Part shown: in pieces, positions 6,172 through 35,145 of the stretch
Layout of the letters: each line of letters opens with the position of its first letter
Position numbering within the stretch: position 1 is the stretch's first letter
Source: a virus
Virus record (IMG/VR): IMGVR_UViG_3300017989_000260
Span: 1 to 35,145 of that record
Strand: one strand, 5' to 3'
DNA length: 35,145 nucleotides
The notes under the pieces: generated by a model
Seen by the model: only the letters and a program-made list of their open reading frames with translations
The model's database searches: none
What the model was told of the DNA's origin: nothing
Made by a program: the position numbers and the translations under genes

Positions 6172-7251
6172 ATGGTCACAGGAATGCAAAAGAAAGCTTC
6201 AAGTTATCCGCCCGGATATAGAGGTAATACTGTAAGGAATTCTTATCAAGATCCCCGATTTCAAAATCAGAATAGAGTATCGCAGTATAATCCTGGTAAT
6301 GGTTTTGCGGTAGTTTCTAACCAAAATCAAAACCAGAATAGAATTCAAGCACAAGGTGCGGGTTATAATACTGATATGAATGATCCTTATCAACAGTATA
6401 ACCAAGCTAACCAGCAAGATAACTTGTGGCGGGCTTTAATGACTGAAGCTGGTCGTCAAGCTATAGGAGCTCAACTCGCGGTACCTATTAGGACGCAACT
6501 TGATTATCAAGGAGTTTCTCGTAGATTCTTTGAAATTGATGTATTGGCTCAAGGTCAAATTGCTCGTTATGATAAAGATATTGAAGGTTTTGCAGCTGTT
6601 GTGGCAAAAAGAGCTGAATCTATTGAGTTTACAATTGAAGGTGAATACGTAGAACCTACTACATGGGAAATTTTTTCTCCGACTTCTATTAGGTTGAGTA
6701 ACATTCAACAGAGAAGGTTTAATGTTCTTGATAGGATGCAAGAGAAAATTCGTATTTATACGCAGATTCAAGAAGATACTCAATTTTTGCAGTTGATTGC
6801 TACTACTACTGCCGGTAATACAGCCAATAACGCTATTGTAACTAGTACCGCTGGCGTATCTAAGAGTTTCTTGAATAGGTTATCAGCTGAAGTTATGAAA
6901 CATGACTTACCGGGTTATGCTTTCTTAATGAATTTTGATGCTTATAGGGATATTCGCGCGTGGACGACTACGGATCTTGATCCGGTAACGTTACGCGAGA
7001 TACAACAATCGGGTTTGTATGCTAATATATGGGGCATTGATATTATAGTTAGCCGGCTTGTTCCGGATAATACTGTATATTGTTTATCTGAACCTCGTTT
7101 TACTGGTGTACTGCCTATCAGAACAGATATGATGGTTATGCCTGATGATGTTCCGAGGAAAGCTCGTATAGGTTACGTAGGTTACGAAGAAATTGGAATG
7201 TTGATGGTAAATGCTAACGCTGTTGCTAAAGGTACTTTTACTCGGTCTTAA
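6172..7251 (+). CDS. Major capsid protein (HK97 fold)
   Basis: 359 residues, the shell subunit. The first ~85 residues are Asn/Gln/Tyr-rich and probably disordered or removed by the protease. From about residue 86 the sequence follows an HK97-type capsid plan: a helix (ALMTEAGRQAIGAQLAVPIR), an E-loop/spine region with RRFFEIDVLAQGQIARYDKD, a long spine helix near RRFNVLDRMQEKIRIYTQI, and a P-domain/A-domain end with YAFLMNFDAYRDIRAW, LYANIWGIDIIVSRLVP and ARIGYVGYEEIGMLMVN. The last resembles the typical capsid C-terminal strand. The start is set by AATAGGAGGTGAATT, nearly identical to that of the preceding gene. A strong terminator follows at 7279-7321, as expected for the most expressed gene of the module. 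Confidence 0.92.
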   Translation: MVTGMQKKASSYPPGYRGNTVRNSYQDPRFQNQNRVSQYNPGNGFAVVSNQNQNQNRIQAQGAGYNTDMNDPYQQYNQANQQDNLWRALMTEAGRQAIGAQLAVPIRTQLDYQGVSRRFFEIDVLAQGQIARYDKDIEGFAAVVAKRAESIEFTIEGEYVEPTTWEIFSPTSIRLSNIQQRRFNVLDRMQEKIRIYTQIQEDTQFLQLIATTTAGNTANNAIVTSTAGVSKSFLNRLSAEVMKHDLPGYAFLMNFDAYRDIRAWTTTDLDPVTLREIQQSGLYANIWGIDIIVSRLVPDNTVYCLSEPRFTGVLPIRTDMMVMPDDVPRKARIGYVGYEEIGMLMVNANAVAKGTFTRS

Positions 7252-8221: not shown

Positions 8222-8869
8222 ATGGCAAAATTGACACCTGGCGAGTTATACGGAGTAGATGAAGGTATTGGGCGTAGTTTTAGTCCTGATTATAATGCAT
8301 TAAGAGTCTTAATGCATGATGGTTTTGGCAATGCCGTAACCTCGTCTGGATCGGTTTCTTCTTCTGTTCGGGCACTTGATGTATCTGTTAAATCTATGAG
8401 TGCTGGGGATATACAAATCGGCGCTGTAGAATTGAAAGATGGCGATTCTGATACTAGAGCTGATATAGAAGCAGATGGCGCAAAAAATGCTTTATTTATA
8501 CAATCTAATAATCCAGTATCTACTTATCCAAAAGTACAAGGAGATAAATGGAGAGTCTGTGGTTCTGGTTCCGCGTTTTCAAGTTCAATTATACAATCAA
8601 CCCCAGGATCTGGATCTTATTTAAATTTAACTTATATTTATTTTTCTATTGATGCTATAGGATCTGTAGGCCTTGAGGATACAGACGGAGGTTGCGTATC
8701 TGCTCCAGCACATTTTGGAGCGAGAGGTGGTATGTGTACTTCTATACCGCCAGAGACAGCATTAGAATTGCCTGAGAATACAGGATTAGTATTAACTTTA
8801 ACAAATACAGCTTCAGGTTCTACTCCTAATCTATCTTATACTATTGCCGGATATACGAGGAGTAGTTAA
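8222..8869 (+). CDS. Beta-rich virion protein, possible head decoration or fibre adaptor
   Basis: 215 residues. A Ser/Gly-rich first part is followed by IQIGAVELKDGDSDTRADIE (about 75-94), a motif I associate with phage structural proteins that bridge shell and appendages. It then forms a likely jelly-roll C-terminal domain (about 100-215) ending in GLVLTLTNTASGS and SYTIAGYTRSS. The domain holds GARGGMCTSIPPETALELPE. Four Cys (in RVCG, GGCVS, GGMCTS) show no clear metal motif. The ribosome binding site is AAAAGGGG, 15 bases after the 7349 gene, so the two are co-transcribed. It precedes the adhesin genes. Assignment to a decoration or adaptor role is inference. Confidence 0.5.
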   Translation: MAKLTPGELYGVDEGIGRSFSPDYNALRVLMHDGFGNAVTSSGSVSSSVRALDVSVKSMSAGDIQIGAVELKDGDSDTRADIEADGAKNALFIQSNNPVSTYPKVQGDKWRVCGSGSAFSSSIIQSTPGSGSYLNLTYIYFSIDAIGSVGLEDTDGGCVSAPAHFGARGGMCTSIPPETALELPENTGLVLTLTNTASGSTPNLSYTIAGYTRSS

Positions 8870-8872
8870 TAT

Positions 8873-8962
8873 ATGTACAGTTTTGTAATTTTAGACAGAA
8901 TAAAACCGATTTTAACAAGTATTGTTGTTATAGTATCTTGTTTAATCGGTTTTTTTATATAG
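8873..8962 (+). CDS. Possible 29-residue membrane peptide overlapping terminator
   Basis: ATG at 8873 follows GAGGAG (8857-8862) by ten bases and opens 29 codons ending in TAG: MYSFVILDRIKP, then a stretch of about 17 hydrophobic residues (ILTSIVVIVSCLIGFFI). The same DNA forms the terminator hairpin at 8902-8957, and the Phe codons come from its U-run. The hydrophobic stretch could therefore be an accident of the terminator. Weakly supported. Confidence 0.2.
   Translation: MYSFVILDRIKPILTSIVVIVSCLIGFFI
8902..8957 (+). terminator. Rho-independent terminator before adhesin genes
   Basis: AAAACCGATT (8902-8911) pairs with AATCGGTTTT (8944-8953). The stem extends inward through AACAAG and CTTGTT with a one-base bulge, and a run of Ts follows the stem. 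It separates the high-expression head genes from the adhesin genes. Confidence 0.75.
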
Positions 8963-8975
8963 GAATTAATGTGTT

Positions 8976-10412
8976 ATGGAATTAATAAAAAGAACTACTT
9001 ATTCTAACCAATATTTTGTAAAAGAGCAACAATATCAATTAGATTTAGGTGGTGTACCTAATGTTATAATTGATGCAAATAAAAATTTAGCGCCTTTAGA
9101 TAATACTATAAGTTTTTTTGATCGTAGTACTAATTATAATTATACTATAAAAAGAAGTAATTTTTATGTGCATTTAGGAGATAAAAAAAGTGTTGGCAAA
9201 TACAAACGTTTTATAAAATCTAAAATAGATAAGGATGTTTGGATTTTAATTACTTTAAAAAATTTAAATACTCAGTTATCAACTACTTTTCAAGAAGGGC
9301 AATTGAATAACAAGATAGAATGGGTTAGCGATAAGATTAAATTTAATAGTTTTATAACTGAAAAACGTTTTAAAGAAACAATACATCAACCAAAAGGGCA
9401 AACAATTATATATCAATATGAAATTAATGGTTTAAAAGCCGTTTTAAAAAATCATATAGTAAAATTTTATACTATAACTGATAATAAACTTTTTGCTTTA
9501 ATTGAACGTCCATTTTATCAAGAAAGTGGTATAATTTTTGATTATGTATGGAAACAAACAGCTATAAATATTTTTGAATTGACCTTACCGGCTCCTAAAA
9601 AAGATAGTATAATAGATCCAACTATAACTTTCGGTGAAGCTACAGGAGCAGATGTCACAGGTGTACATAAAGACACTTTTTTAGCTGGGGGGTCATATTC
9701 TAATAGATCTTATGGAGCTTATGCATACATGATACATAGCCAGACGGCTACAGACCAGAGTGATAGAGCGGGGATATTACGGTTTGATTTGAATACTATA
9801 CCTAATTGTTCTATAGTTAATAATGCTTCATTGAGATTAACATTATCAAATAACGGATTTCCTGCTGGCGGTGATAGGGTTTTTAATATAAGACGTATGA
9901 TTACTAATTGGGGTAAAACATTAATAGAGGAAGGAGGTACAAATACTCCTGCCGCAGCTAATGAAGCAACTTGGGATAATGCTTTTGCTGGAGGAGCCCA
10001 ATGGTCTGGTGGTGCTGGAGGATATTGGCTGGTAAATGATAGTGAAAATCCAGAAAGTAACATTTTTATTCCTCAAGGAACAGTACAAGGTACGCAATTT
10101 GATTTTGATATTACGAGTAATATACAATATCAAGTTGTAAATCCAGCTTTAAACTATGGATTAGCTATACAAGAAGATATATCTGATAGAGTAGATTTTG
10201 CTGCACAAGAACACGATACTGTTGGTTATAGACCTTTATTATCTGTTGTTTATACAATACCTACTAATACTAAAATTTTTGGTATGCATCCTGCAAGTAA
10301 TGTTACGGGTATTCATAAAGATACTTTTATAACTTCTACTAATGGCGATAGTGCTTACGGAGATAATACAGAATTGCGTGTAAGCAGTAGAGATTTTGCC
10401 CCTTTATTATAA
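8976..10412 (+). CDS. Adhesin/fibre protein with one DNRLRE domain and the front of a second
   Basis: 478 residues. Residues 1-210 form a Lys/Asn/Tyr-rich beta-type domain of unknown family. Residues 213-428 form a complete DNRLRE-type beta-sandwich: GVHKDTF, then GILRFDL, NNASLRLTLS, EATWDNAF, and RPLLSVVYT as last strand. From residue 435 a second copy begins (GIHKDTF with H447, then NTELRVSS) but stops at RDFAPLL, exactly where the partner copies continue with LLRFDL. The missing rest (RFDVSLLPTD onward) is found 1.4 kb downstream inside the next gene. This C-terminus therefore looks created by an insertion. DNRLRE domains occur in extracellular and phage appendage proteins. AGGAA precedes the ATG, just after the terminator. 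Role: receptor or glycan binding on the virion, inferred. Confidence 0.7.
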   Translation: MELIKRTTYSNQYFVKEQQYQLDLGGVPNVIIDANKNLAPLDNTISFFDRSTNYNYTIKRSNFYVHLGDKKSVGKYKRFIKSKIDKDVWILITLKNLNTQLSTTFQEGQLNNKIEWVSDKIKFNSFITEKRFKETIHQPKGQTIIYQYEINGLKAVLKNHIVKFYTITDNKLFALIERPFYQESGIIFDYVWKQTAINIFELTLPAPKKDSIIDPTITFGEATGADVTGVHKDTFLAGGSYSNRSYGAYAYMIHSQTATDQSDRAGILRFDLNTIPNCSIVNNASLRLTLSNNGFPAGGDRVFNIRRMITNWGKTLIEEGGTNTPAAANEATWDNAFAGGAQWSGGAGGYWLVNDSENPESNIFIPQGTVQGTQFDFDITSNIQYQVVNPALNYGLAIQEDISDRVDFAAQEHDTVGYRPLLSVVYTIPTNTKIFGMHPASNVTGIHKDTFITSTNGDSAYGDNTELRVSSRDFAPLL

Positions 10413-11823
10413 TTAAATTATGAACCAAATAAAATTAGATCCTAATTACATATACCCAGTCTTTAAAGTCGGAGATAAACAAACCGCCAAAGGCAAAGAG
10501 TATCTCGGCATTAAAGACGGTATGTTAGCTGACGTGCTTGATCCACAAGACTGGAAAAACGGAGAATTAGTTATATCAGACCGGATGCAAAAGGTTTATA
10601 GGATAGGGAAAGTAAATCGTTTAGAAAAAAACAAGTTTCTATCAGGACAAAACGAATATGGCGCAACTATAGACAAAGGAGTTAAATCAGTTGATATAAA
10701 ATCTTACCGGCACTCTGCCATGTTTGTTGATTTTGCAGATTTGGGTAACGCCCTGAAAACTAATCTGCGAGCAGACAAAGACCACGGTATTTTAGATTTA
10801 ACTAAAGTTTCTCAAATATTATTCAAAGACTCAAAAGACATTGATTTTACAAAACGAATTATATCTGACCTGAACGCTATTTCAATAGGAACTTGCACCA
10901 TTGGAACTGCCGGAGATTACACCACCTGGCGATTGTTTGCAAATGATTTGGCAGACTTAACCGGAGATCTTACAGCAACCCAGATATCAGATACGACAGA
11001 AACAGATAAATCAACCCTAACAGAAGACCTTAATAACCACCATTTAAAATTAACAGCGAATAAAATAATTAATGGTAACCCAAATTATGGGTGGAAATCC
11101 ATCCTTAGCGTAGCGGGAAAATTCTTTTTTGAAATACAAATAGAAGGCCCGGGAACTTGTACCTTTGAAAACCTATATACCTATTCTACAGCAAACAGAT
11201 TAACATTGGCAGACTTTCAAACAGCAAATGTTGTAGCAGCCTTCAATCTTAATATGCACAATATTATGATTGACGGCAATGGGATGCAAAATTTTGGTTT
11301 CCATTTTACGACCAACACGCCCACAGTAAAAGTCCATAACTGTAAAATATGGGATTCACGATTTAGTTTCTACTCCCAAATTTCCGGGGCCAATCTCACA
11401 GCTGAAAATATCACCATTGATAATGATGGTCATTCGGCTTATGATTTAGCAGACCAGGCCGTCAACTTAAATAACTGTGTTGCTATAAATTCAACAATCG
11501 CAGATTTTCGGAATCACGGCAATGCCACCGGCAACAACAATGCTTCGGATGACGGAACAGCGGCTAACGGCAATTGGAATGTTGGGAACAACAATATTAT
11601 AAACATAACACCAGCGGATGAATTTATAAGTACTAAAGATACAGATGATAATTATTTAAATATAAAAAGAACAGCCACAATTAGGGATGCTGGTTGTACT
11701 CCGACTATTGCCACCAATACAACCGGTATGAGAACTAACTATCGTCCGCATCTTGATTTTGATGGTAATGATAAATATACAATAGGCGGTGATGAATTTT
11801 TTCCGGAATATGATATAGCAGGC
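10410..11823 (+). other. Inserted beta-helix segment splitting a DNRLRE domain
   Basis: The segment between RDFAPLL (end of the 8976-10412 gene) and RFDVSLLP (from 11824) interrupts one DNRLRE domain. It supplies the in-frame TAA at 10410, a new ATG at 10420 and a beta-helix domain ending in TIGGDEF. Codon use is visibly richer in C (for example 24 of 60 bases G+C at 10441-10500 against 19 of 60 at 12121-12180). No transposase, inverted repeats or convincing target duplication are visible, so illegitimate or modular recombination is more likely than transposition. Confidence 0.55.
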
Positions 11824-13956
11824 CGTTTTGATGTATCTTTATTACCTACTGATACTACTATTACCTCTGCAACTATATCATTGGTTAAAAAAGATGATAA
11901 TCTAGGAGCTAGTGATACTTTAACTGTACAATTAAGAGAAATTACTCCCGATTGGGGTATTCATAAATTAGATGAAGGAGTAGAAGAAGATCCAGCAACA
12001 AATGGTCAAGCTACATGGAGAAGAAAAAGAGATTATAACGGAGCTGGAGGAGACGAATTTTGGTTATCAGGAGCTGATTTCTCAAGTAGTGATTATGGGG
12101 ATACAATTTATGATTCAAAGGATGTAACCAGTTCTACGGCTAATTATACAAGACTTTATTGGGAATGTAAAGATTTAGTACAAAAATGGATAAATAATCC
12201 AAATTCTAATTTGGGTTTCGTATTTGTAGGTACTGGAGTCGATGGTTGTAATGATGTTGTTTTTTATTCTCAAGAAGAAGGTATAGAAGCTTTTAGACCA
12301 CAACTTACTATTACTTATACTACTCCTGATTGCGTTACAGTTTTTGGTGGTGTAGATGGGGCAGATTATCCGAATAATCATAAAGATACATATATTAATT
12401 CGGGATCTGTACATGCAGCCTATGGTTCTGATACTCAATTACAAGTTGCCGGATTGGGTAAAAGTTCTTTATTACGATTTGATTTAAGACAAATACCAGA
12501 TTATGCATATATTCAAAGTGCTAAATTAAAAATGACTTATGCTGGAGGTGCCATAGCTGGGGCAGTAGAGGCAAGAAGATTAAAAGTTAATTGGGGACAG
12601 TCTCAAACTATTGAAGGTATATCCGAAAGTCCAGCATCAAGTGGACAAGCTACATGGGCTGCTGCTTTTGATTGTAATGGCGGAGGTGCCGGCCCCGATT
12701 GGTGGCGCCCTTGTTATAATTATAGAAGACCAATTACTATAACAAATAACACAGGTGGTAATGCGGTGGTTAATACTATAGTAGCTTTTGATATGGCAAC
12801 TAATGCCTTAATTACTGCGGGAAAAGTAAGAGCTGATACTAAAGATTGGAGATTAGTCTATTGGGATGGCGCGAATAATACAGAGATAGCAAGAGATGTA
12901 TATAGTGGTTGGAATACAGCTAATACAGAGACGTGGTTTAGATTACAAGCTCAAATAAATAATGGTAATAATGATAGTGGTTATTATATTTATTATGGTT
13001 GTCCAGCAGAATCTGGTGTTCCAACAGGATTAGGATTATCAGAATTAACTTTACGTAGTCAAATTAATAATACAGGTAATATGACAGCTGATTATAATGA
13101 CGATCAATGGAGTATAGGACAAAAATATACATATACTCCGCCTAATACTAGTTGGTTTATAATTACTAAAATGGATTTAAGTGTGGCTAGTCAACCTGGT
13201 GGCGGTACTACGTATTTATTAGCTCCTTATGTATTTGATGCTGCGGCGGGTAATCATGGAAATCAAATAACAAACGGCATTGGAGATACTAAAGCCAATA
13301 ATTCTCTATCTGTACCCGGTTTTAATTCTTTTACTTTTTCAAATCCTCATCCAAGACCAAAAAGAGCTGTATCTTACTATTATTCTATCCAGCCATATAA
13401 CGATAGGGCGGGTTCCGGTTTAAATGGTTATTTTCAAGTTAATTATAAAAATGCTGGAGGGGAAAATTATTATAGAATAAATAAGGATGGTACATGGAAT
13501 ATATACAGCGCAAATGGCGAAGCTACATGGAAGTTGTATGGTAAAGAAGCGCCTAACGATGAATGTGCTGATAGTATGGGCGCTGAAGAAACACCGCCTA
13601 GTGCTGACGCGGATGTACCTTGGACATCGGGAGGTAATTTTTCGAGTAATGATTATGGACCTAATGCTTGTGCTACTAATGTCATTACAGGATCAGAAGT
13701 TGTAGGCGATGTTTTTACTTTTGATATAACTTGTGCAGTAAGAGGTTGTCATTGCGGAGAATGTCATAATTTAGGTTGGTTATATAACAATCATGGCATA
13801 ACATTACTTGGGGAGGATTTAAATAGTAGCATAAATTTCTTTTCCAAGGAATTCGCCTCAGGCGCTTTACGTCCATATCTTGCAGTACAATGGTCTACAG
13901 GACATATATTGGATACCACACCACAATATTGGGGAGATACAGTTTGTGCTTCATAA
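10420..13956 (+). CDS. Chimeric adhesin: beta-helix, DNRLRE halves, DUF2341 insertion
   Basis: 1178 residues. Residues 1-150: unknown domain (IYPVFKVGDKQTAKGKEYLG near the start). Residues 150-460: right-handed beta-helix of pectate-lyase type, with repeated NIT/IDN/LNNC turns and the usual family ending (AGCTPTIATNTTG, NYRPHLDFDG, TIGGDEF). Residues 469-635: rear part of the DNRLRE domain begun in the previous gene. Residues 637-761: front of a third DNRLRE (H654 in NHKDTYINS, SSLLRFDLRQIP). Residues 762-1067: DUF2341 (YNYRRPITITNN, then GYYIYYGCP) plus a second beta domain. Residues 1068-1160: rest of the third DNRLRE. The ATG has no ribosome binding site and lies 7 bases after the previous stop, so it may rely on reinitiation. 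Eight or more Cys cluster near the C-terminus (RGCHCGECHN). A terminator follows at 13984. Confidence 0.7.
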   Translation: MNQIKLDPNYIYPVFKVGDKQTAKGKEYLGIKDGMLADVLDPQDWKNGELVISDRMQKVYRIGKVNRLEKNKFLSGQNEYGATIDKGVKSVDIKSYRHSAMFVDFADLGNALKTNLRADKDHGILDLTKVSQILFKDSKDIDFTKRIISDLNAISIGTCTIGTAGDYTTWRLFANDLADLTGDLTATQISDTTETDKSTLTEDLNNHHLKLTANKIINGNPNYGWKSILSVAGKFFFEIQIEGPGTCTFENLYTYSTANRLTLADFQTANVVAAFNLNMHNIMIDGNGMQNFGFHFTTNTPTVKVHNCKIWDSRFSFYSQISGANLTAENITIDNDGHSAYDLADQAVNLNNCVAINSTIADFRNHGNATGNNNASDDGTAANGNWNVGNNNIINITPADEFISTKDTDDNYLNIKRTATIRDAGCTPTIATNTTGMRTNYRPHLDFDGNDKYTIGGDEFFPEYDIAGRFDVSLLPTDTTITSATISLVKKDDNLGASDTLTVQLREITPDWGIHKLDEGVEEDPATNGQATWRRKRDYNGAGGDEFWLSGADFSSSDYGDTIYDSKDVTSSTANYTRLYWECKDLVQKWINNPNSNLGFVFVGTGVDGCNDVVFYSQEEGIEAFRPQLTITYTTPDCVTVFGGVDGADYPNNHKDTYINSGSVHAAYGSDTQLQVAGLGKSSLLRFDLRQIPDYAYIQSAKLKMTYAGGAIAGAVEARRLKVNWGQSQTIEGISESPASSGQATWAAAFDCNGGGAGPDWWRPCYNYRRPITITNNTGGNAVVNTIVAFDMATNALITAGKVRADTKDWRLVYWDGANNTEIARDVYSGWNTANTETWFRLQAQINNGNNDSGYYIYYGCPAESGVPTGLGLSELTLRSQINNTGNMTADYNDDQWSIGQKYTYTPPNTSWFIITKMDLSVASQPGGGTTYLLAPYVFDAAAGNHGNQITNGIGDTKANNSLSVPGFNSFTFSNPHPRPKRAVSYYYSIQPYNDRAGSGLNGYFQVNYKNAGGENYYRINKDGTWNIYSANGEATWKLYGKEAPNDECADSMGAEETPPSADADVPWTSGGNFSSNDYGPNACATNVITGSEVVGDVFTFDITCAVRGCHCGECHNLGWLYNNHGITLLGEDLNSSINFFSKEFASGALRPYLAVQWSTGHILDTTPQYWGDTVCAS
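12703..13620 (+). other. DUF2341-containing insertion within third DNRLRE domain
   Basis: Copy B reads GGDEFWLSGADFSSSDYG without a break. Copy C reads AGPDW, then about 306 residues of DUF2341 plus another beta domain, then WTSGGNFSSNDYG. The insertion thus lies at the tryptophan. The front junction (12680-12712) is an island of G+C in AT-rich DNA. Base composition of the rest matches the neighbours, unlike the 10410-11823 segment. Confidence 0.5.
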
Positions 13957-14024: not shown

Positions 14025-14546
14025 ATGGCATATACTACATTAGAACAAAATTTAATAGATCACGTTAAAATGGCTATAGCTCATTCGACAGAAGAATCTT
14101 CTGTTTATGTATTACCTAGAAGATTAGCAGACGGAGAAATTTATGCGGGATTGGAAAGAGCTTTAATGAAATGGAATGCTACACCGCCTAGATTCACTAC
14201 TCATGTTTTTACAGATTTTGATACAAATGGTGCAGTAGAAGGTTTAAAAGAAATTTTAATTTTAGGCGGAGAATTGTGGGCTACATATAAAATTATTTAT
14301 TTTGAAGCGGGTAAGCATTTTTCAGTATCAGATTCAGGACATACTTTTACGAGAGATAGATCACAAAAATTTTTATCTATATTGCAACAAAAAATGAATG
14401 AATATTTAGAACTATTAAAAATATCAAAGAAGATGTATTTAATGGGATCACTTACACCACTTGGTCAATTTTCTGCTACTGCTGGAATGCCATTACAACT
14501 TGATAGGGCGTTGCGAGGAGTGCGTAAATGGAATAAATTTAGTTAA
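14025..14546 (+). CDS. Putative neck / head-tail connector protein
   Basis: 173 residues, soluble and mixed alpha/beta. IYAGLERALMKWNATPPR (about residues 38-55) and ILILGGELWATYKIIYFEAG (about 84-103) look like the core of a small virion protein. The C-terminus is helical and basic (DRALRGVRKWNKF). This resembles what I recall of virion proteins in large myoviruses with an ALxRWNATPP-like segment, but the family is not certain. AAAAGG lies upstream of the ATG, just after the terminator. It begins the block between capsid and sheath, where connectors and tail terminators usually lie. Its stop touches the next gene. Could also be a baseplate component. Confidence 0.5.
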   Translation: MAYTTLEQNLIDHVKMAIAHSTEESSVYVLPRRLADGEIYAGLERALMKWNATPPRFTTHVFTDFDTNGAVEGLKEILILGGELWATYKIIYFEAGKHFSVSDSGHTFTRDRSQKFLSILQQKMNEYLELLKISKKMYLMGSLTPLGQFSATAGMPLQLDRALRGVRKWNKFS

Positions 14547-34185: not shown

Positions 34186-35145
34186 ATGGCAGAAGAAGTA
34201 AAACATAAAATAACAAGAATTAATAATACCAGAGCCGATTTACAAGCAAATTTAAAGAAGAATCAAATAGCGGTAGAAACCGATAATGATGGGAATTTAG
34301 TATATAAGGATAATAGTAGCGCTTATCATATAACAGCAAATTTAACTGAGGATGCAACTTTTGCGGATGTTGTAACTACCGGTACTTTATTAGTAAATAA
34401 TGCTCCGGCAGATTCTACCTGCGCTATTAGAAATCAAGCTGCAGGCTGGGCATTAAAAATTAGGGGTACAACTAACACAGAAGGTGGGGGTTTTTATGAA
34501 GATGCTACGAGGGATATGGATTTGCGAATAAATGATAGCGCCGGCAGCACAAAGGTGCTTTTGGATTCTGACGGAGATAGTTATTTCACCGGTGGTAATG
34601 TAGGAATAGGTATGGACTCACCAATTGGCCGGTTGCATGTTCAAAAATCAGACGACCCCAGCATCTATATCGAAAATTCAGGGACAGATGCCAGTCAGAC
34701 CTGCACGATTAGTTTAAGGCAAGGCGGTTTTTCAGCGACCAGAATAAGGGCTGTTTCCGATGACCCTTTTTTGTCTGGTAAAAGCCGTTTTGATGTTCTT
34801 ACCGACGATACGATAAGAGTGAGTATAGGGAGTGGTGGAAATATGGGTGTCGGAGATACCACGCCGGCCAAAAAACTTGAAGTAGTTGATAGTTCAGCGG
34901 CACAGCTACGGCTATCCCATACAGCAGACACTCATTATACTGATTTCCAGGTAGATGGGAGCGGAAATTTAAAAGTATCTGTATCCGGGACGTATATTGA
35001 TTTTGACATGGCATCTGACAATACAGAAGGTTTAGAAAAATGCGGTTATATAGAAGTAGTAGCGGAAAATTCTATGGCGCCTCCTGCAGCCGCTAATGCA
35101 GGATTTATGAAAATGTGGTTATGTGATGGTACTCACAATATACCT
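34186..35145 (+). CDS. Tail fibre protein, partial at right edge
   Basis: 320 codons open to the right edge; the C-terminus is missing. ATG follows AAAGGAGA by seven bases. The N-terminal 60 residues (MAEEVKHKITRINNTRADLQ) are AT-rich in codon use and likely a baseplate-binding segment with a coiled coil. From about residue 78 codon use is richer in G and C. Seen: FTGGNVGIGMDSPIGRLHV (about 137-155) and GNMGVGDTTPAKKLEVV (about 217-233), both variants of the VGIGTTSPxxKLHV repeat of trimeric tail fibres. It probably binds the host receptor through the missing end. No chaperone-peptidase end is visible because of the truncation. Confidence 0.7.
   Translation, partial: MAEEVKHKITRINNTRADLQANLKKNQIAVETDNDGNLVYKDNSSAYHITANLTEDATFADVVTTGTLLVNNAPADSTCAIRNQAAGWALKIRGTTNTEGGGFYEDATRDMDLRINDSAGSTKVLLDSDGDSYFTGGNVGIGMDSPIGRLHVQKSDDPSIYIENSGTDASQTCTISLRQGGFSATRIRAVSDDPFLSGKSRFDVLTDDTIRVSIGSGGNMGVGDTTPAKKLEVVDSSAAQLRLSHTADTHYTDFQVDGSGNLKVSVSGTYIDFDMASDNTEGLEKCGYIEVVAENSMAPPAAANAGFMKMWLCDGTHNIP

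Follow-up and report, generated by a model that had tools for sequence, protein, structure and literature searches.

How does a gene for what appears to be a virion-surface protein come to be read as two adjacent open reading frames (ORFs), with one conserved domain shared out between them? The virus record IMGVR_UViG_3300017989_000260 raises this question; its 35,145 bases were analysed as a whole and are called the window here. Judging by its genes (head maturation protease, major capsid protein, baseplate wedge protein and endolysin-type domains), the phage is contractile-tailed. An earlier note on this DNA had observed that the product of P0001 stops in the middle of a DNRLRE domain and that the continuation lies farther downstream, and the translations bear this out. 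P0001 ends in SSRDFAPLL, that is, HKDTFITSTNGDSAYGDNTELRVSSRDFAPLL directly before the stop, within its second DNRLRE domain, while the continuation RFDVSLLPTD begins at 11824, in frame within P0002, which reads RFDVSLLPTDTTITSATISL there. Along with the stop, the intervening block contributes a new ATG and a module rich in repeats, and one reading frame has thereby been turned into two (Table 1). We consider it probable that an adhesin-like module was acquired horizontally in a cargo hot spot, which broke one gene into two.

Table 1. Features of the split locus, with comparable sites in related phages (positions are those of the window unless a locus is named).
Feature	Position	Strand	Basis
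Major capsid protein, left border of variable slot	6172..7251	+	phrog_2522, 3.8e-52
P0001, upstream half of split gene: N-terminal region, domain A, start of domain B	8976..10412	+	ORF, translation
DNRLRE domain A, complete	9669..10247	+	NF033679 positions 1-163
DNRLRE domain B, first part, profile 1-35	10317..10409	+	joined-domain match begins at joined residue 22
Left junction, three stops and new ATG	10410..10423	+	sequence, start-site list
Segment of foreign codon usage, C-rich third positions	10410..11616	+	change-point scan
P0002, downstream ORF with block module, remainder of domain B and domain C	10420..13956	+	ORF, translation
Native-coded right end of inserted block, beta-helix-like end DFDGNDKYTIGGDEF	11617..11823	+	codon counts, translation
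DNRLRE domain B, remainder, profile 36-164	11824..12315	+	profile match
DNRLRE domain C, first part, profile 1-86	12382..12609	+	profile match
In-frame insert inside domain C, unclassified, edges approximate	12709..13600	+	interval separating the two domain C matches
DNRLRE domain C, last part, profile 102-163	13681..13887	+	profile match
Conserved structural gene, probably head-tail adaptor, right border of slot	14025..14546	+	conserved, syntenic in relatives
Endonuclease-like genes between structural genes of relatives	L010 6409-6999; L012 12517-13191; L007 12663-13454; L008 9980-10912; L051 9468-10280		
Capsid group I introns of relatives	L021 8497-9343; L028 3191-3409; L030 2134-2364		

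That domain B is a single divided domain follows from its behaviour against the profile NF033679, for which the curated cut-off is 34 bits and a match over the full length is required. The joined halves score 74 bits in a single stretch over positions 1-164, as compared with 60.4 bits for the domain in the arrangement as encoded and 59.3 bits, over profile positions 36-164, for the second half by itself. A full-length match of copy B above the cut-off was obtained solely with the halves joined; as encoded, the copy is spread over two ORFs, and every frame meets a stop at 10410-10423. A wrong register at the join (three residues removed or six added) gave 68.8 bits, and a hand-scrambled first half placed before the second half gave 60.0 bits. 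In a MAFFT alignment with the third copy, the joined domain runs over the join without a gap (ELRVSSRDFAPLL followed by RFDVSLLP, against QLQVAGLGKSSLLRFDLRQIP). A search of genome contigs with the DNRLRE alignment recovered bacterial proteins only, in eight DNRLRE loci; in six of these eight a single match crosses the position of the join, and in the same six this through-match beats the second half alone by about 4-7 bits. Domain A, joined domain B and domain C of the window all match NF033679, as bacterial DNRLRE/CBM96 domains do (the matches of P0001 itself are CBM96 at 2.7e-10 and DNRLRE at 1.9e-14); unlike the bacterial domains, they are carried by a phage, with copy B lying over two ORFs and copy C containing an in-frame insert. 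One DNRLRE domain and its gene are thus split by a segment of foreign codon usage, and for the split of the domain the evidence is solid.

The anatomy of the left junction bears on how the two products are made. Within 14 nt, each of the three forward frames runs into a stop, namely TAA (10410-10412), TAA (10414-10416) and TGA (10421-10423), so that a fusion of P0001 and P0002 by readthrough or simple frameshifting is ruled out. The new ATG of P0002 stands at 10420 and lacks a Shine-Dalgarno-like motif, which most, not all, genes of the window have; since this ATG sits only 7 nt beyond the stop of P0001, P0002 is probably translated through reinitiation. That the tail of P0001 makes up in trans for the first strands of domain B that P0002 lacks strikes us as improbable; if true, the half-domains would form a strand-complementation link joining two virion surface proteins.

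The insertion point lies between the Leu and Arg codons of the LLRFD motif of domain B. The break had been proposed to fall exactly between two strands, a placement we do not retain: the join falls within the contiguous motif ILRFDL/LLRFDL of intact copies, and a low-confidence model (pLDDT 42) draws it in one strand. There is no target-site duplication at 10410/11824. The sequence CTTTATTA adjoins both edges and was judged a chance occurrence as a junction repeat, because joining there would lose RFDVSLL. At the right junction, GCCGTTTTGATGT (11822) has a second copy at 34784, within the distal part of the tail-fibre-like gene P0003 (34546-34815, to the record end), a part with the same C-rich foreign codon usage as the block; a 13-mer repeat that close to a random position has a chance of about 8%, given which a short-homology mechanism through this sequence is a lead only.

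In order to delimit the incoming DNA, codon composition is more informative than total G+C. The block had been described as richer in G+C and in C-ending codons than its flanks. The first part holds against P0001 (0.374 versus 0.304) and hardly against the rest of P0002 (0.364), which is barely lower, whereas the second stands: third-position C/(C+T) reaches 0.38 within the block as compared with 0.09 and 0.12 in the flanks, and the C share of pyrimidine-ending codons elsewhere is 0.12. The signal is therefore a synonymous one of third-position C. Equally long native runs never exceed 0.17, and a change-point scan gave a log-likelihood ratio (LLR) of 49 as compared with at most 10.3 in 100 permutations. 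On the left, the compositional edge (10320-10453) takes in position 10410, where the anatomical junction lies. On the right, it is best placed at 11602-11617, with 3-nat support for 11572-11749, and disagrees with the anatomical edge by about 200 bp.

This disagreement is what decides against the simplest history. Insertion of one complete foreign segment (10410-11823) in a single clean step, as the earlier note had proposed, would agree with the domain picking up exactly at 11824, and the native-like end of the segment would then reflect chance or a local constraint. Yet moving the edge from 11617 to 11824 worsens the fit by 6.2 nats, and the stretch 11617-11823 (207 bp, 69 residues) looks native, with C in 7 of 45 pyrimidine-ending codons (P=1.4e-4 under the foreign rate). 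We thus hold the one-step insertion to be unlikely, if by no means negligible. The codon usage leaves the genome's native range from 10410 to about 11616 only, so that the clearly foreign DNA, from 10410 to about 11610, amounts to ~1.2 kb and the remainder of the block is native-coded. As the foreign signal ends about 200 bp before the domain resumes, two recombination steps or a mosaic donor are likelier than a single clean insertion. Some related phages use C-rich codons (0.27-0.39, nearly matching the block), and the block donor may therefore be a cousin phage.

A second history would dispense with an intact ancestral domain B altogether. Fusion or unequal recombination of two DNRLRE-repeat genes broken at the same position would draw on the readiness with which tandem repeats recombine; halves taken from any two copies would be likewise complementary, and replacement or fusion at homologous DNRLRE points could give the same picture. 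It leaves unexplained, however, why a C-rich block begins at the left junction, and we regard it as distinctly improbable. An assembly chimera in the metagenome contig is a still poorer account: the record is that of an uncultured virus and its composition changes abruptly, but the longest repeats by the junctions (10 and 13 nt) are short for k-mer misassembly, and the chimera would call for two false joins that coincide in a single codon boundary of a single domain, with the frame kept at the right-hand join. Removal of the block as a self-splicing intron or intein, giving an intact product, can practically be set aside in spite of the group I introns in the capsid gene of three relatives, given that the RF00028 ribozyme core is not matched in the window by the same search that finds it in L028 and L030, that almost the entire block codes for protein in the frame of the downstream half, and that stops in every frame exclude an intein.

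Horizontal acquisition, our preferred reading, is also to be seen against the surroundings of the gene. Relatives were collected in IMG/VR by an alignment-based search with the capsid protein (26 loci), and a few more were added by a search with an alignment of the 14025-14546 product. The interval from the capsid gene to this latter gene spans 6.8 kb in the window, about 0.1 kb in L027, 0.2 kb in L023 and L066, 1.2 kb in L025, 2.4-3.2 kb in L010-L016, 3.8 kb in L051 and over 8 kb in L009 and L021. In relatives it holds Laminin_G_3 lectin-like proteins, GIY-YIG/NUMOD3 and DUF559/NUMOD3 endonuclease-like proteins and an amidase. Since both length and cargo vary, the split gene can be said to occupy a cargo slot next to the capsid gene. 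This position, between the major capsid gene and a conserved structural gene, casts doubt on the assignment of the gene to the tail made earlier; by gene order, its product would as likely be a head or neck decoration as a tail adhesin or fibre. A swap of host specificity, which the earlier note put forward as a consequence, would be conjecture. Genes composed of many short repeats of the LHRLDGPAxExxxGxKEWxxxGK type also lie by the capsid gene in L004 (11550-13336) and L066 (156-1316).

Neither the DNRLRE domain nor the block occurs in any of the relatives searched. Viral contigs gave no match to the block, P0001, the distal flank or the DNRLRE alignment, and genome contigs gave none to the block; across viral contigs, genome contigs, phages and plasmids, neither a donor nor a relative with an empty site came to light.

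Mobile elements are a recurrent presence in this part of the related genomes. Free-standing GIY-YIG, DUF559 and HNH endonuclease-like genes with NUMOD3 lie between structural genes, and several of them occupy the same capsid-to-adaptor slot. Group I introns interrupt the capsid genes of L021, L028 and L030 close to one shared position (about residue 102), and the intron of L021 carries a LAGLIDADG endonuclease ORF (8600-9256). These introns and homing endonucleases likewise split a conserved virion gene precisely and in the same gene cluster; unlike them, the block of the window contains neither a ribozyme core nor a recognised nuclease gene.

As to what the block does encode, an adhesin-like, beta-helical module is plausible from the character of its sequence. 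The beta-helix proposed in the earlier note agrees with this character and with the end of the block, DFDGNDKYTIGGDEF; no beta-helix match was found in Pfam, PHROG or PDB sequences, and the structure model, which had too few sequences to inform it, reached a pLDDT of 32. Weak Shiga-toxin-B-like matches of the block (E 0.02-0.95, far below curated cut-offs where these are given) were judged to be chance. Elsewhere in the window, P0006 (14778-16475), which has native codon usage, appears to consist of a beta-helix-like N-terminal half fused to a conserved C-terminal half (residues about 400-545) that is kept in relatives lacking that N-terminal part.

Domain C has been invaded as well, being interrupted in frame by a few hundred residues of native codon usage, part of which weakly matches a protein of Eggerthella phage LE2-3. 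The insert resembles a DUF2341-type module, for which a Pfam search brought no confirmation, and it would be older than the block. This second insert counts in favour of acquisition, as do the C-richer related phages as possible donors.

Taken as a sequence of events, horizontal acquisition could have proceeded as follows. The ancestor would have been a virion-surface protein in which the DNRLRE (CBM96-like) domains A, B and C followed one another in tandem. A piece of DNA with foreign codon usage, coding for an adhesin-like and probably beta-helical module, would then have entered domain B inside LLRFD. It would have supplied a stop codon, another start codon and a right end that keeps the frame, leaving two adjacent ORFs, the second probably reached by reinitiation. 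We infer that the block was built by two recombination steps or came from an already mosaic donor, and breaks made by homing endonucleases in the slot would be a plausible driver.

Such rebuilding has close parallels. The receptor-binding domains of phage tailspikes and tail fibres undergo modular exchange (PMC10408124), and in both cases a gene for a virion surface protein takes up adhesin-like modules horizontally, leaving mosaic edges that are sharp. In tailspike exchange the anchor is kept, the distal domain is swapped and a single reading frame is preserved (PMC10408124), whereas in the window the DNA landed inside a domain, turned the gene into two ORFs and adjoins the capsid gene. Fragments of phage proteins are also reported to be shuffled on an ongoing basis (PMC10684548), and the split locus resembles this shuffling in its domain-level mosaicism of proteins that meet the host.

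Altogether, modular mosaicism among the surface proteins of phages explains the event well, and the event is a fairly ordinary example of it, the less usual detail being that it broke both a domain and a gene. The locus offers a clear snapshot of a phage surface protein being rebuilt by a sharp-edged foreign segment, in a lineage that refills the same capsid-side slot repeatedly with differing surface modules and homing endonucleases. Because neither ORF holds all of domain B, a split of this kind may conceal a domain from ordinary annotation.
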